Source: Phaeodactylum tricornutum CCAP 1055/1 (Eukaryota > Bacillariophyta > Bacillariophyceae > Surirellales > Neidiaceae). From it: a stretch of DNA of 64,000 nucleotides. The position numbers and the translations under genes were made by a program. The stretch lies in contig NC_011690.1 of the NCBI RefSeq assembly GCF_000150955.2, positions 62,001 through 126,000 on the forward strand, in the 5' to 3' direction. Shown piece by piece: positions 32,504 through 40,818 of this stretch (position 1 is the stretch's first letter; each line of letters opens with the position of its first letter). The notes below the pieces were generated by a model. It had not been told where the DNA came from and did not search any database. It saw nothing but the letters and a program-made list of their open reading frames with translations.

Positions 32504-33200
32504 TGATAAGATTCTACCTGCTTACGAGTGTATTTGTAGAATACGACGAAAGAGTAGAAGTTGGGGGGAAAGCCTCGTAGAGGCTCCGATTGTTTTAATC
32601 GGTAGGTTTTTAGATTGAGATTGTGAGACTAAAATAGAGGTTCCAAAATGAAACCTTTTGTGTTGGAAACAGAATGTACGAACGTAGAAACCCCGTAGCC
32701 AATGTACTGGCTATCGAACCATTGACATAGTTTTTGTCGAGATGATTGGATCACCTATGTGATCGCCAAACCATCGAGTTCGGATGGTGCCAACAGTATC
32801 TGTTGACAACTTTCATCTAGGGAAACCGTATGGTAATCAGGAATATTTCGTTCCTAGCATATCAGGTTTGATAAGACGAGTTGTCTTATACGCCTCATGC
32901 AACGGAACCAGAGTTGTGTATGTTGCAAACATTTGGGTGCATAACGCAAATATTTGGTTTCCTATGAGACGCTTCGTATTTTCCTCCGGCATGCCACACA
33001 CGGGAAATGAACCCGACGAGGACAGTCGTCTGGCCACTGCGTCTGTCCTACGACAGAGCCAGGAAAAAGGAAATGGCAATGAGGCCAAGATCTAGAGCTA
33101 GTGAATCCTAGATAGATGTTCCAACAAACAATGCTAAGGCTAAGCAATTCTATCTACAACGTAGTATCAAATTGTAGCATTGTGTGGCTATAATTTATCA
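32504..33200 (-). repeat. 5' LTR of younger copia element
   Basis: 697 bp, the partner of 25751-26447. On the element's own strand this is the promoter-bearing LTR. The inner border is followed by gtttactcagaccc; I could not match a tRNA primer with confidence. Confidence 0.92.
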
Positions 33201-35010
33201 CCAGCTTTTGCTTGGTGGGTACCAGACGTATTGCAGAAACGTGATTGTATTATTTCAGCGGTAAAGACGAGATTTATTTCAGCGGTAAAGACAAGATACC
33301 TGAAAAGGACTCACAAGTTTGGTATTTGTATGCCAAAATCGGTCAAGCAAGCTCTCGAGATTGACCGAGATACTAAAACTTCGTTGTGGTCGGATGCAAT
33401 CAAGAAGGAAATGACAAATGTTATGCCAGCATTTAAAATTCTCGATCAGGATGCTCCTAAACCAGTTGCTCATACATGGATACCATGTCACATGATATTT
33501 GAAATCAAAATGGATTTTACTCGCAAAGCCAGATTTGTCGCCGGGGGACATGTTACAGATCCGCCGAGTTCAATTACATATGCCAGTGTTGTTTCGCGCG
33601 ATACTGTTCGCATTGCTTTACTCATCGCATCTTTGAATTCATTGGATATACTTGGTGCCGATGCGCAGAATGCTTATTTGAATGCTCCAGTTCGCGAAAA
33701 GGTATATACAACATGTGGTCCAGAGTTCGGAAAGTCAGTGGAAGGTCGTTATACACTTATTGTTCATGCGTTATATGGTTTGAAGTCAAGTGGGGCAGCA
33801 TGGCATGCTCACTTAGCTGCAACAATAGAGGAGTTGCATTTTATCTCTTGTCTTGCAGATCCAGATGTTTGGCTTAGACCAGCTCAGAAACACAATGGTA
33901 CGAATTACTATGAGTATGTGCTTATTTATACCGATGATTTCCTATGTATCAGTACAGATCCGAAGAAGATCCTGGATTCGATCGGTATGCATTTTAAACT
34001 CAAGCCTGAATCAATTAAGACGCCCGAGGTATATTTGGGAGCAAATCTTGGACGTTTTACGCTTCCCGATAATCCATCGAAACAGCGATGGTCGATGAGT
34101 TCCACGAATTATGTGAAACAGGCAGTTGCAAATGTTGAAAAGGATTTGGATGAAGTTGGAAAACGTTTATCTACAAAGATTACGTCACCTATGTTGTCAA
34201 ATTATCGACCGGAACTCGATGTTCCCCCTGTGTTGGATGCGGAACGTGCTAAATATTTCCAGTCACAGATAGGAGTTTTGAGATGGGCAGTTGAAATTGG
34301 TCGCATTGATATAATGTGTGAGGTGTCTATGCTCTCATCTTTTCTCGCGATGCCGCGTGAAGGACATCTAGCTGCCGTTTTTCATATTTTCGGATATTTG
34401 AAGTCACATCACAAGTCTCGATTGGTATTTGATGATTCTTATCCGGTGATTGACAACAGCTTTAACAATGATGCGGATTGGACAGATTTTTACGGTGATG
34501 TTAAAGAGCCTATTCCACCAAATGCTCCGGAACCACGTGGTAAGGTGGTGGAGATTATAGCTTTTGTTGACGCTGACCATGCGGGAGACCGTGTTACTCG
34601 TCGTTCTTGGACAGGTGTTTTGATTTATATCAATCGTTCTCCGATTATGTGGTTCTCGAAGCGTCAGAATTCAGTTGAAACGTCTACTTTTGGTAGTGAG
34701 TTTGTTGCATTAAAGATTGCTACTGAGATGATACAAGGTCTACGATACAAGTTACGTATGATGGGTATTCCTATTGATGGTCCGGCTAAAGTTCTTTGTG
34801 ACAATATGTCGGTTGTATACAATACTACGGTATCAGAATCAGTGTTGAAGAAGAAAAGTAACGCGATAGCGTATCATTTCGTACGAGAGAATGTTGCCAT
34901 GAAAGTGATCAAAATTGAATATGAACCATCAGAAACAAATCTAGCGGATATACTTACGAAGGTTCAAACAGGTCCAGTGAGACAAGCTATCATACGAAGT
35001 ATTTTATGGT
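33200..35010 (+). mobile_element. Reverse transcriptase / RNase H part of older copia element
   Basis: Long plus-strand coding remains with copia reverse transcriptase (RKARFVAGGHVTDPP, YGLKSSGAAW, IYTDDF) and RNase H (AFVDADHAGDRVTRRS, then the LADILTK end). It follows directly after the nested element's right LTR and the ccag duplication. Belongs to the same element as 21754-25750. Confidence 0.85.
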
Positions 35011-35208
35011 GATTCAAGTTACAAGAAGGGTTTGCCGACTTTCCCGTTCTCAACAGATTCAATGTTGGGACAAATTGCATTTGCATTATATTTGTCATTG
35101 CATGCAGTGTCGAAGTTTTATTTTTATTTGGTTCCCTATTTTTCCCATTGTGGTTTTGAGGGGACACATTTCGCCAAGGTTATGTTCATGGTCTCAATGT
35201 GAGGGGAC

Positions 35209-35357
35209 TAGAAAAACCCTACGACAAGCATATCGGGGTTCATTATCCCTTTATCTTGGGTTTATGCTTATAAGTCTTTGTTTTACGTCTTTTTATCGTA
35301 TCTACAATCCTTTGGTCCCACAGACACGTTTTAGCCCGTTATCGTTGCAGTTTTCTA
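35209..35357 (+). repeat. Right LTR of older copia element
   Basis: Matches 21754-21902 over 149 bp with about four differences. It is preceded by a purine tract (gtgaggggac), as expected at the 3' end of a plus-strand LTR element. Confidence 0.85.
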
Positions 35358-35456: not shown

Positions 35457-35510
35457 GGGGATGGCTAGTACGCACCCCTTTTCGTGAATGAGACCCACAC
35501 CCACGACTCT
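35457..35510 (+). repeat. Left terminal inverted repeat of MULE
   Basis: Begins GGGGATGGCTAGTACGC and ends CCACGACTCT. It is the inverse of 40765-40818 with two mismatches in the middle. The left border is 99 bp past the older copia element's right LTR. Confidence 0.85.
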
Positions 35511-35789
35511 CTGCTTCGTTGTCAGGCCTAATACGATTAACTGTCGAAGTGCGAGTCGACTAATATAAAAACGGCTGTGAGGCCTTTTGCAATTTACTGT
35601 CAAACGAGATTTGCCGAGCCGGTTGCGTCGACGGCTTCAAAATTTGGCTCTTTCGACAATGAAAATTTAGGATTGACAGTGAAGATTGAATGCTTTCGTA
35701 CCATTCAGGAGGGATGTCAACTGGTGTATTGTACTTCCAGGTCCATTTGGACCCCGAAAGTCCTCCAATGTTGTAGTTTGTTTTTCAAT

Positions 35790-36625
35790 CGTACCCAAGT
35801 AGCCATGGAACATTTAAGCTGCCCAAGCGATATGTGTTCGAGTTGATGGTGTTGAACACGTCAACGCTTGACTGAATGGTGTGTATGCTTCAAGAACTGG
35901 ATAGGCTTTCTCTCATGTTGCTGGTGTCTGGTGTCGCATCCCACACACTTTGTTGCTTAAATGCTTCAATGCTCTTGGTCTCGAAGTGGGAACGCAAACG
36001 CTCCCACAAAAAATCCAAGTCCACCAAAACGCTCCTCATGGATCTCTTTCCCAACAATACCAACATTGAAGGCGCTACCATTATCAACGCGTGTTACGGA
36101 GGCACCGCCGCCCTGCTCAACGCTTTTTATGGGTTGTTTTTGACGAATGGGACGGCCACTACGCCATCGTCGTCGCCGCCAATATTGGTGCCTACGCACG
36201 CGGCCCCGCCCGACCCACTAGTGGGGCTGGCGCCGTTGCCATACTTGTGGGACGCGATGCGCCCTTGTCCTTTGACCCATGGACCCAAGCCACACACCGC
36301 CAATGTTTGGGGCTTTTACAAACCCAATCATACTGTGAAATACCCAACCGTGGATGGCGCACTCATGCTTCAAGCTCTAGAAGACGTCTACACTCGCTTT
36401 CCCGAAAAAGTCACCCTCCGAGACGGCGCCACGCACAGTGGAATACAATTCAAGGCCAAATCACCCAATTACCTTGTCTTTCACGCACCTTACAACAAAC
36501 TCATGCAAAACCTATTCCCACATTCCCCTCAGCGCGACATTTACCGTCGCTACTGGCAGCCCCCTTGCTCCACCCATTGTCCTGCGGGAAGCCAAACGGG
36601 ATTCCGTCTTGCAGCCTGTGACAGG
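35790..36625 (+). pseudogene. HMG-CoA synthase fragment carried in the MULE
   Basis: Several short stretches in different plus-strand frames match HMG-CoA synthase in the right order. These are PKRYV near 35.85 kb; STKTLLMDLFPNN followed by INACYGGTAALLNAF with the catalytic Cys codon near 36092; DGHYAIVVAANIGAYARGPARPTSGAGAVAI; VWGFYKPNHTVKYPTVDGAL; and NYLVFHAPYNKLMQ near 36.49 kb. Frame changes between these blocks, stops, and loss of the spacer around residues 30-80 show that it is not functional. The match covers roughly the N-terminal half of the enzyme, which condenses acetyl-CoA and acetoacetyl-CoA in the mevalonate pathway. Whether it derives from a spliced or unspliced source cannot be told without the parent gene. 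Confidence 0.8.
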
Positions 36626-36639
36626 TAAACTGCAGGTTC

Positions 36640-37190
36640 TGGCCAGCACGCGGGAAGGCACACACCAAAGCTTGGCGTAGAATTGCCTTTGTCCTTACGG
36701 GAACTGCTGCCGGTTTGCCCAAATTAGACAACGAAAGTTCCGAGGGAAACTCCATGTGGGCTGCGGAGGAAGAGCACAAGGCGCTAGCTGATGCATTCAG
36801 CAAGCAGAGAACTGCCCGTATTCTGACCAGCATTCCTCAGGCAATTCCGTTTGATTGTCCTGTGAAGCTTTTTGATGCCTTGCTTTGTTCAGACAAAGAG
36901 AAAACACAAAGCAAGAATGAAGAGAGGCGAGACACTGTAATGGCCATGACGGATTGGACAATCCGTTTGCTGGACATAATCTGGAGAGACTAACCGAGTC
37001 GCGAACTTTCCGACAACGACAAAGGCGCCTTTGCACAACTGGTTTCTCGTGCACGCAAAACAGAATCAGAAGGAAAAGACCCTACGAGTTTGATTGCAAA
37101 TTCTTGTTCCGCGTAATTGTCCTGGGCAACGCTCAGCTTGCTCAGTTAGCCGGTTGACGAGGTCCCAACATGCAAAGCAATGCCGCCTGT
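36640..37190 (+). pseudogene. Uncertain decayed coding remains inside the MULE
   Basis: A plus-strand stretch of 92 codons (about 36.72-36.99 kb) and shorter neighbouring ones look protein-like (WAAEEEHKALADAFSKQ). They may be the downstream part of the captured HMG-CoA synthase or a third captured piece. I recognise no domain. Confidence 0.35.
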
Positions 37191-37194
37191 GCCG

Positions 37195-37577
37195 GTACGA
37201 CATACTGGTTTCTGGACGTGCTCAACAAGTAGTGGTTGTGGCCGGGGATAATGCTGTGGGAGAAACGCTGCTGCCTTGGTTGGGATCCGGATTCCGCGCT
37301 TTGTGCCACTACAGCTGTTACTGTGGAAGACGCCGCTTTGCCGTTCAATAAGCGTCGATTCGGGCATGTTGCTGCTGCTGGCGGTATGGGCTTGGTCCTC
37401 AAAACAGAGCTGAGTATGGTAAAAGACTATTGCCGTATCCGTCCTTCAGCCGTCAACAAAGGTGACAATGAAAGCAAAGCCGGCGTTGACACCAAAGGCT
37501 TGGAAATGGCCAATACGTTGGGGCTACAAGTACACCTTAGTGATTTTGCATTGGAAGGTCTGAGGACTCTAGTATAA
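37195..37577 (+). pseudogene. Probable beta-ketoacyl-synthase fragment carried in the MULE
   Basis: Plus-strand codons read AGDNAVGETLLPWLGSGF, then across a frame change ALCATTAVTVEDAALPFNKRR and GHVAAAGGMGLVLKTE. The spacing of AALPF-KRR and the Gly-rich GMGLVL-E resembles the ketoacyl-synthase domain around its second catalytic region, as in polyketide or polyunsaturated-fatty-acid synthases. Only about 100 residues are present, with a frame break, so it is a fragment. The family call is moderate; other thiolase-fold enzymes are possible. Confidence 0.45.
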
Positions 37578-37700
37578 GGCATGATGGTTCTGACAGAGGA
37601 AGAGTGCCAAGAATGGCTCACAATTATAATGAGGGATGCTACAGTCTTTAACATTTTCCTATAGAATGCTTCTCATGATGACAAATAGGTCTCACTATCA

Positions 37701-40610
37701 TTACTTGTTCAGCCACCAAAATTTTGCCTTTGTTTCTTTTTGTCTGTCTCTTAGATTCTTGCTCTTTGAAGGACTGTAGCTTGGCCTGAGCCTTTGGCCT
37801 ACTGGTTCTTTTCCAATAGCTGGGCCAATACTGTAATCTACCATACCTGACCCTTCTGCAACATGTTTCTGTAGCAATTCCAAAGTTTCCTGCATTCCTT
37901 TTGTCATTATGTCAGCAGCTTTTGAATTGAATTTGGCAAGTTTTGAGATTTCCTCGTAAAAATGAAGATTGTTTGTGTATGGACTTTTACCCGATTTTGA
38001 GAGATTTGAATCAATTTCTTCAACCTGCATGACAGTTACATCTCCAACATCCATTTCACTATCCAATTGAGTTTCAATAGCATACCCCTGGGAAAGGCTG
38101 GTCAACTCTTGCACCATACCGCTTGCTGCAGGAACTGTTTCCTGTTCAGTGCTTTTATGCACATAACATCCAGGTTGTCGTGAAAAAGAATCAGCCCATC
38201 TGCTGTACTTCTGGATAATGGTGGGCTCGCTTGGAAGTGATCTCTTAAAATAGTTGTACTCTCTCTCACCCTTTCCAACTTCCCACTGATTTGTGTTTTC
38301 GAAATGTGGCCCTGGCCGCTCCTTCTTATACAATTCCTCTAACTGGTCCGACAGATCATGATATCCAGGTCGATGCAGGTAAACATCCCAAATTTTTGTC
38401 CATCTCACAGAAACGTCTGTTGATTGTGGTGGTCGGTTAAGTACTTTGTAGATGTGAGCACATGGAGAAGCTTGTCGTTGGAACTTGCCGCAACTACATT
38501 CCAGATAGAGTTCACCTTCAATTTCCGTAATTTTTACGATGCGGGTGCGCTCAAACTGTGGAATCATAAATTGGCAAAAGTTGCTGTCGTTGAAATCCTG
38601 GTAGGTCTCGCTTGGAATTTGGTACCATGCTCGCTTTACCCAAAATTCTTTTGGACCCGGGCAAAAGAGGTCATATTTTTTGGCTGCATTGAATTCATGG
38701 GATATGGTTTCCTGTATGCAATCTACTAGGTCGGATATATTGGTGTAGTTTGCTGCCTTTGTCTTCTTTGTAGCATTGAGGTTATGAACTGCTTTTTGTT
38801 GCCTCTTCACTGTTCGCAATTGAGTCCCTTCGTTTATTGCCCGTGTTGCTTTTGGCACCGAAAAGTTTGGCTTGACCCCATCACCCCGTCGTTTTAGAGC
38901 ACTGTTCTCTGCTTCTCCGTAGGAACTTGCGGACGTGTTGAATGCTCTCACGTTCAGAAAATGGTATCGAGCCCAGCGTTGCTCGTGCGGAAACAGAGAG
39001 GACGTCAAAAATGCATTTATCTGCGAAACAAGGGCACAACCCATTCCGCCCAAATTTGTATCAAGTGCCTCCGGAGATTTCAGCCAGTCAATCAAAAGCC
39101 CAGTTGACAAATTGTACTCCTCTTGCGTCTCAATTTTTGTCATCCAGCTTTCTATCCACTTCAGGACCACATGGAATAGAATTTTTGCTTTTGTTCCACA
39201 GTTTCCAGTCTGTGCTTTCATAAGACTGCCGCGATAGAGTAGATGCCAATGGCATAGTTTGTGCCGACACAAGCTATACCAAGTAGGTATTGCATCTAAA
39301 AAAGTACCATACTCTCGCGGGTCTCCATCAGTAATCAATAGACGCATTCTGTTCAGCCCCTGTTCAGGTAAGAGCTGTGGAATGCATCTTGTCCACACCC
39401 ATCGGAAGGCCCAACGAGATTGTTGCGGTAGAAAGGCCCAAAGTGCTGTAAACGTGTTTTGATTTGATGTCTTTCCCGAAAACAAAAACAGCGGCCGTTT
39501 TGCATTGTTGGTACCTTCTGTCACATCTGCTACCATGATCTCGGAATAGCGAGCAAAGATTCTTCTACTCTCGTTGTTGGTCCAGGCCACTCCTAAAAGC
39601 ATTTTTTCGTTGCCCTTCAACTTGAACGCCCTCCGCGTCCTATCTATATAGTCATCAAGCTCTCCCCTTGGATCAATAGCATCTAGCACCTTTTCATTGA
39701 GCACTTCTTGTTGGGCAATTCCTCCAGAGATACTCCGTGTACTGGTGTGTAGGTGCCGACGTCCAGTTTTTGCCCTCTGCTTGTAAACAGTGAATAAAGG
39801 GGAATCTGGTTCATCATATATGGCACAGAAGCTGACATCCGGGGTGCTCTCAAGATAAGCTAGAAGTTGATCCGCTTGCGTCGTGAAATTATCGTTTGCA
39901 CCAAATTTGTTCCGTTCACCTTTTTCAGCTTGCATCCGTATATTTTTTAGAGATGAACCTGACAAGATATCTCCAGTTCGTATGTTCAGCAGCCGCCCAA
40001 TCACGCTTGGTGGGGCATTACTTTTTGCTGCATCAAGTGCTATTTTTACTTCACCACCGTCAATATAGGAAATACTCTTTTTTACCTCACATGGATCCAT
40101 TGGTAAATGATGACAGTGAAACCTGCAGCTGCCTTTTACACCTCCAAAAAGACACCATTGTTTATGTTCTGTCATCCAAAAAATACTGAACCGAAAAGGA
40201 CACTCTTTTCCCTTTTGTGGACGTATGAAGGAAACGTTGCGATGTTTTATAGCCACATTGGATAGACTGTTTTGTTTTGTTTTGTACCTATCCGCATCAT
40301 GGGATCTACTTCTAAAGCATTCAAAACGTAGTCGCCTCTTTTTTGCATCCCATCCTCGTTCGACTAAGGGAAACTTTCCATTTGCAGCAGCAATCTTAAT
40401 GGCCTTGGCTAGACTATTTCGGCAATTTGAGGTAGAGTCGTATCCTTCCGGAAACATAAAACACTCTCCAATGCGTTTACAATCTAGACCAATGTAATCG
40501 CATAGATTAACTTCCTGCCCTTCTTTCGATGGAAAAGGGATGCACTCAGTCATCCACTCCTTCTTGCTGGCAATGTTGTTGTCAAGCAATTGCTTCAAAG
40601 AGCAATCCAT
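37701..40610 (-). CDS. MULE transposase with FAR1-like and SWIM zinc domains
   Basis: A single frame of 969 codons from the ATG at 40610; the frame stays open a further 8 codons without an ATG, so a short upstream exon is possible. Order: N-terminal zinc-binding region of FAR1/WRKY-GCM1 type (RLRFECF to CPFRF, HCHH, about residues 90-170); the DDE catalytic core with Asp near 362 in VADVTEG and Asp near 428 in LLITDGD; the CRHKLCHWH motif; a later acidic segment (SYGEAEN) that could give the Glu; and a SWIM zinc finger (CSCGKFQRQASPCAHIYKV). The C-terminal quarter is charged and variable, ending basic. The frame has no internal stop, so the protein could be functional. Confidence 0.88.
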   Translation of the reverse strand: MDCSLKQLLDNNIASKKEWMTECIPFPSKEGQEVNLCDYIGLDCKRIGECFMFPEGYDSTSNCRNSLAKAIKIAAANGKFPLVERGWDAKKRRLRFECFRSRSHDADRYKTKQNSLSNVAIKHRNVSFIRPQKGKECPFRFSIFWMTEHKQWCLFGGVKGSCRFHCHHLPMDPCEVKKSISYIDGGEVKIALDAAKSNAPPSVIGRLLNIRTGDILSGSSLKNIRMQAEKGERNKFGANDNFTTQADQLLAYLESTPDVSFCAIYDEPDSPLFTVYKQRAKTGRRHLHTSTRSISGGIAQQEVLNEKVLDAIDPRGELDDYIDRTRRAFKLKGNEKMLLGVAWTNNESRRIFARYSEIMVADVTEGTNNAKRPLFLFSGKTSNQNTFTALWAFLPQQSRWAFRWVWTRCIPQLLPEQGLNRMRLLITDGDPREYGTFLDAIPTWYSLCRHKLCHWHLLYRGSLMKAQTGNCGTKAKILFHVVLKWIESWMTKIETQEEYNLSTGLLIDWLKSPEALDTNLGGMGCALVSQINAFLTSSLFPHEQRWARYHFLNVRAFNTSASSYGEAENSALKRRGDGVKPNFSVPKATRAINEGTQLRTVKRQQKAVHNLNATKKTKAANYTNISDLVDCIQETISHEFNAAKKYDLFCPGPKEFWVKRAWYQIPSETYQDFNDSNFCQFMIPQFERTRIVKITEIEGELYLECSCGKFQRQASPCAHIYKVLNRPPQSTDVSVRWTKIWDVYLHRPGYHDLSDQLEELYKKERPGPHFENTNQWEVGKGEREYNYFKRSLPSEPTIIQKYSRWADSFSRQPGCYVHKSTEQETVPAASGMVQELTSLSQGYAIETQLDSEMDVGDVTVMQVEEIDSNLSKSGKSPYTNNLHFYEEISKLAKFNSKAADIMTKGMQETLELLQKHVAEGSGMVDYSIGPAIGKEPVGQRLRPSYSPSKSKNLRDRQKETKAKFWWLNK

Positions 40611-40764
40611 GTTGCAATAGAAGGGCACCTGCAACGCAATTTTTCATTCAACTATGGTGACCTATATCATTGTCAACATTCTGTTTGGGGGCTTTGCCGG
40701 CTTGGCATTGCTCTTTTGAATCCCAATAGGCCTCAAGCAATGGCCTCAAGCAACCTCGCTTTAC

Positions 40765-40818
40765 AGAGTCGTGGGTGTGGGTTTTATTCACGAAAAGGGG
40801 TGCGTACTAGCCATCCCC
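40765..40818 (-). repeat. Right terminal inverted repeat of MULE
   Basis: Inverse partner of 35457-35510 with two mismatches over 54 bp. A small direct repeat (ggcctcaagcaa twice, about 40.73-40.76 kb) sits just inside it. Confidence 0.85.

Follow-up and report, generated by a model that had tools for sequence, protein, structure and literature searches.

A Mutator-like transposon of Phaeodactylum tricornutum that carries pieces of host genes and probably inserts with loss of 6 bp of its target

The element and its copies

The window analysed here is a stretch of 64,000 nucleotides from the diatom Phaeodactylum tricornutum CCAP 1055/1 (RefSeq assembly GCF_000150955.2, contig NC_011690.1, positions 62,001 to 126,000 of the forward strand). 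Its positions 35457-40818 form a mobile unit of 5362 bp, a Mutator-like element (MULE) in which a transposase gene is combined with pieces of host genes, and which is probably an autonomous diatom MULE, picking up such pieces through template switching and deleting 6 bp of its target on insertion. We refer to the family of this element as A and to a sister family as B (e.g., the copy B-C9); copies are named after the contigs that hold them (C1, C3 and so on, from a 27.45-Mb genome of 88 contigs), C22 being the contig with the window. The features of the unit are the following, with the source and the nucleotide identity given for the gene pieces.

35457..35510, + strand: left terminal inverted repeat (GGGG...), an end common to three full and four small two-ended copies
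35457..35730, + strand: left end region, about 71-72% identical to four non-autonomous copies
35687..35819, - strand (antisense): fragment whose source gene has a RanBP zinc ribbon and FG-like repeats (C2:1379250-1379382, 133 bp, 82%)
35980..36510, + strand: HMG-CoA synthase (HMGS) exon-2 piece (C27 parent, 88%)
36510..36728, + strand: HMGS C-terminal end and linker of a fused gene (C27 parent, 84%)
36722..36951, + strand: HECT ubiquitin-ligase coding piece, inside the piece of the HMGS-ketoacyl synthase (KAS) gene (C16:322878-323107, 230 bp, 92%)
36950..36995, + strand: continuation of the HMGS-KAS piece beyond the HECT segment (46 bp, 87%)
36994..37456, + strand: ketoacyl-synthase piece of the same fused gene (C27 parent, 81% with gaps)
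37442..37620, + strand: P4-type (phospholipid) ATPase coding piece (C16:518554-518732, 179 bp, 83%)
37704..40610 (stop left out), - strand: MULE transposase with SWIM zinc finger, 969 codons, an open reading frame from ATG with Pfam match
40673..40818, - strand: right end region, 77-81% identical to the same four non-autonomous copies
40765..40818, - strand: right terminal inverted repeat (...CCCC), found in sibling copies too

As a preliminary description drawn from the sequence alone had reported, the two arms (35457-35510 and 40765-40818) are inverted repeats of 54 nt with 2 mismatches (96% complementary). A whole-genome search with the first 144 bases of the element returned at least 23 matches, the repeat counts from this search being lower bounds. 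Among the copies are two further full ones, C3:493310-498671 (C3a), which is identical to the window element over all 5362 bp, and C61:283498-288866, which differs by 24 substitutions and two small indels. The full identity of C3a and the window element, at two separate places, means that movement was recent. The gene pieces are present at 99-100% in all three full copies (C22, C3a and C61), while the surrounding DNA differs among them immediately outside the ends. Four more two-ended family A copies of 1150-1881 bp (C29, C26, C3b and C24) have the same ends without the transposase, and in all seven two-ended copies the flanks diverge right outside the terminal inverted repeats, which thus bound the unit. 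With the same ends and cargo in three different surroundings, cargo and transposase travel as a single unit, as had been proposed. Both additional full copies contain the HMGS piece, none of the three ends inside 35457-37700, and the left inverted repeat belongs to the element; the four small non-autonomous copies carry it as well. Five further family A ends are single. For these one-ended copies the missing partner, a right end in four cases and a left end in one, was sought over stretches of up to about 7 kb; no candidate exceeded a score of 16, the highest value that 100 shuffles of one such locus gave.

Two observations concern the neighbourhood and minor relatives of the element. Positions 33180-35357 of the window hold what we read as a Copia-type reading frame, with a long terminal repeat (LTR)-like end about 100 bp before the element; a genome search with this end, in which 40 of 149 candidates were scored, gave at least 45 matches. 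Another palindromic element, tiny (∼140 bp) and with ends that are related, lies near 14200-14335 of C53 and C45, on two near-identical contig stretches.

The transposase

The 969-codon SWIM-type transposase of the preliminary description was borne out by Pfam, both domains scoring above their cut-offs (MULE: 1.4e-6, 29.1 bits vs 27.6; SWIM: 3.4e-5, 23.7 bits vs 19.6), and from our reading of the alignment we take D362, D428 and either E566 or E568 as putative catalytic residues. The frame is open in all three full copies. Differences at the three codon positions (0.26/0.21/0.53 against C67; 0.28/0.23/0.53 against each of B-C9 and B-C25) suggest that the transposase has been conserved over a longer time than the cargo, which would be a passenger that decays. 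Several points weigh against this picture of a maintained enzyme. The constraint is seen against C67 and family B but not against a degraded relative on C18, where the differences are spread about evenly over the codon positions (0.077/0.105/0.109, 247 codons), as in a dead copy. Moreover, a 2-base insertion near the end of the transposase in C61 alters its last residues, and the predicted structure (mean pLDDT 43.6) is too weak for use.

A cargo from several host genes

The plus strand of the element matches both the N and the C domain of HMG-CoA synthase. Four pieces align in order and orientation to C27:93960-99460 at 81-88% (element positions 524-1054, 1054-1272, 1494-1539 and 1538-2000 at 88, 84, 87 and 81%, respectively). 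With two introns removed, this parent, on the minus strand, gives one predicted frame of 1098 amino acids that contains the N (7.6e-72) and C (3.7e-69) domains of HMG-CoA synthase and a ketoacyl synthase domain (3.7e-12). The ordered remnants of HMGS and of a probable ketoacyl synthase that had been noticed earlier are thus both there and in that order, and they stem not from two genes but from one host gene fused in frame. That earlier inventory of metabolic pieces had missed three more host genes: the HECT and P4-ATPase pieces, both in sense, and the antisense RanBP/FG-repeat piece, whose source gene we read as nucleoporin-like. With separate parents at 82-92%, the cargo is, as judged from these alignments, a mosaic from at least four host genes.

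Relative to the parent, the join at 36510 between the HMGS pieces is a 713-bp deletion and the one before the ketoacyl-synthase piece, where 2 bases are shared, a deletion of 476 bp. Neither coincides with an intron border; in our reading, the pieces break off at no particular position within exons and share a few bases where they meet. The parental introns (∼136 and 90 bp) lie outside the kept pieces or within a deleted part. A stretch before the HMGS piece matches the parent weakly: as high a score arose in a fraction of 0.034 (spliced exon 1), 0.184 (intron 1) and 0.094 (unspliced stretch) of 500 shuffles; the pieces kept in the cargo thus do not appear to tell a spliced from a genomic template. 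A candidate 9-bp duplication flanking the HECT piece was dropped: its left copy matches at 6 of 9 positions only and also fits the HECT source, so that, as we read it, template switching explains the apparent duplication.

Compared with its parent, the window cargo differs at 6-8% of non-CpG positions and, where either sequence has a CpG, at 21%. An excess of change at CpG is expected of methylated transposons, and decay of this type is the likely history of the cargo. The divergence implies that the capture is not recent, in agreement with the decayed state first described. Across the comparisons of the window cargo and of the C18 copy with the parent, the rate of difference at CpG positions is ∼2.7 to 4.8 times that at other positions.

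This C18 copy is a degraded relative (right end region 90%, transposase relics 86-89% identity) that contains 1.29 kb of the same C27 parent at 85.6%, a longer piece than that of the window element and on the same side of the transposase. A single capture shortly before the two lineages split would be the simpler account. We consider an independent uptake of the fused gene by the C18 relic the less probable course. In its favour, the two cargoes share few non-CpG changes (4, with 15 and 21 being private, and a further 11 shared at CpG), they have no join in common, and their non-CpG divergence exceeds that of the backbone (43/369 vs 67/884, P 0.028). On the other hand, both carry the same gene on the same strand in the same place 3' of the transposase, and against the right end region alone (15/176) the excess is not significant (P 0.30), the remaining backbone being coding.

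Gene capture is also seen elsewhere in the two families. Family B, with ends GGGGAACATTG... of ∼136 bp and copies on C1, C9, C3 and C25, has a transposase that is about 65% identical to that of A in the best stretches and is broken by stops. The kilobase 3' of it is common to five copies at 98-100%, and to C62 over 717 bases at 91%; it includes, in five copies, 435 bp taken from an open frame on C29 (89%), and three more places (C18:546996 and C42/C37) match shorter parts of it. In the four small A copies there are fragments both of the FG-repeat gene and of an open frame located on C3. Capture would thus be a habit of the lineage, not an accident. Two adjoining pieces in the small A elements lie 279 bp apart in the C3 source; we rejected this gap as a spliced intron, as it is open coding sequence.

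Target sites

MULEs are described as making target-site duplications of 8-11 bp (Dupeyron et al., 2019; PMC6446971). Such a duplication was found in none of the seven two-ended family A copies, including the identical C22 and C3a, and in none of four family B copies (for B-C1, 5 bases of the right flank were compared). As a control, a solo Copia LTR inside C3b (C3:115104-116984) shows, in comparison with the copy C29, a 5-bp duplication (AATGC). Target-site duplications had not been a subject of the preliminary description, and their absence was the least expected result.

Empty relatives of the insertion sites were sought by searches with the flanks within the same genome for 12 two-ended insertions (seven of A, four of B, and B-C62; the tiny C53/C45 element was left out). 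Five of them yielded an empty relative, and at four of these five sites 6 bp of the target are missing. In A-C24, which lies inside a Copia frame, ACAAAG is lost, where all nine aligned Copia copies read ATT-ACAAAG-G; in A-C26 it is AGTTAG (from the alignment of one out of four equally long empty places), in B-C9 CCATAC, with GGGG/CCCC taken as the ends, and in B-C3 AGAACT. The alignments thus point to the absence of a duplication and the loss of 6 bp at four sites in families A and B.

A number of points weigh against so uniform a picture. None of the empty sites is an allele; they are related repeats. No two-sided empty site was found in the genome for C22 (the window element), C3a, C61, C29, C3b, B-C25 and B-C1, of which B-C1 and B-C25 have a common right flank and are not independent. 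For A-C24, more distant Copia matches lie outside the nine-copy alignment, and the last base of the element is T instead of C, so that five bases lost and one changed would fit as well. The hexamer missing in A-C26 resembles its neighbour (AGTTAC/AGTTAG), the loss in B-C9 becomes 8 if the ends are taken as GGGGG/CCCCC, and the empty site of B-C3 has other indels besides. Finally, B-C62 does not show a clean loss: AGCTA stands in place of CGCAGGT, with 6-7 bp lost and 4-5 gained, and its left end is within a duplicated stretch. Two family B left ends, at C62:15360 and C62:32904, have at least 97 bp of identical flank in this duplicated stretch.

A possible mechanism and its alternatives

In standard DDE insertion the element is joined to 5'-staggered cuts, and gap filling duplicates the target. 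For families A and B, we propose that the transposase would join both ends to the target at cuts lying 6 bp from each other on the two strands, with a stagger opposite to the usual one. The six bases between the joints would then be attached to the element on neither side and would hang as 3' flaps; their trimming would leave a fixed 6-bp deletion instead of a duplication, and untidy repair of the flaps might give small replacements such as that at C62. The gene pieces may enter by template switching when breaks or stalled forks within the element are repaired, which we suggest because they end arbitrarily in exons and have short shared bases at the joins. That this describes a whole diatom lineage of DDE cut-and-paste elements, with an inverted stagger, a fixed 6-bp deletion and repeated uptake of host pieces while autonomous, is a reading for and against which we see equal chances.

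Ordinary MULE chemistry followed by end-joining repair that trims the target, the common 6 being a coincidence or a local habit of repair, seems unlikely to us. The 5-base replacement in B-C62 does resemble an end-joining outcome, but the same number recurs at four sites in two families whose transposases have diverged to about 65% identity in their best stretches, and 0 of 11 copies have a duplication, even the identical C22 and C3a. It is highly improbable that the empty sites have instead gained 6 bp, or are non-orthologous relatives with indels that mimic a loss. Their nature as related repeats with other small indels, and the near-tandem look of the C26 hexamer, could be taken in this sense; yet the C24 hexamer corresponds, as we read it, to two codons of the Copia frame, all nine aligned copies have it, and four separate gains of 6 bp precisely at insertion points would be required. 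The alternative raised in the preliminary description, a transposon that landed next to an old HMGS pseudogene, the left repeat being unrelated, fits the decayed cargo but is refuted by the three full copies, in which the same ends enclose the same cargo at different places, and has next to no probability left.

A target-site duplication is regarded as the signature of DNA-transposon insertion, and the detection of elements by packFinder relies on it, according to the description of that program (PMC8903248). If transposition with a fixed deletion is correct, a lineage that deletes 6 bp would escape annotation by duplication-based programs, and a DDE transposase would be shown to be capable of the opposite stagger. 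The presence of a transposase and a multi-gene cargo in one element means that gene capture needs no non-autonomous carrier, and that the capture of host genes by transposons is not a speciality of plants.

Comparison with known systems

We know of no eukaryotic DNA transposon with a fixed target-site deletion by inverted stagger, and a literature search at the level of titles and the beginnings of abstracts yielded no report of a DNA transposon with a fixed target-site deletion. As far as the sources cited here go, the lack of a duplication in diatom MULEs is already on record and the target deletion is apparently new. The table of Dupeyron et al. (2019; PMC6446971) lists MULE-Diatoms as group 37 with the entry "No TSD and not indicated", where TSD stands for target-site duplication. 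With this group the window element shares the diatom host, a SWIM transposase in one open reading frame, terminal inverted repeats and the lack of a duplication. In contrast, the terminal inverted repeats in the table are of 123-124 bp, against 54 bp in family A and ∼136 bp in family B; its entry for other motifs or open reading frames is "-", where the window element has host-gene cargo; and the group's entry mentions no target deletion, whereas families A and B lose 6 bp. Of MULEs in general, the element has the transposase domain and the terminal inverted repeats but not the duplication of 8-11 bp. For P. tricornutum itself, Maumus et al. (2009; PMC2806351) counted two distinct families of Mutator-like elements, of which one is close to TpMuDR1; the part of that report consulted describes neither cargo nor target deletion for them.

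Plant Pack-MULEs and other Pack-TYPE elements likewise have host coding pieces between DNA-transposon ends, but Pack-TYPE elements are defined as non-autonomous in the text cited (PMC8903248). The window element thus resembles a Pack-MULE in its host gene pieces between MULE ends and departs from it in its complete transposase. For animal Pack-TIRs, gap filling or template switching has been proposed and multicopy chimeric elements are known (PMC8277862); in the portion of that study drawn on here, the multicopy examples have target-site duplications and no transposase-bearing case is described. Among the groups in the table of Dupeyron et al. (2019; PMC6446971), the nearest case to a transposase combined with host inserts is MULE-Cc of red algae, a sub-group of group 36 with one open reading frame, a SWIM domain and "Various inserts, potentially host derived"; its entry gives neither source genes nor insertion sites.

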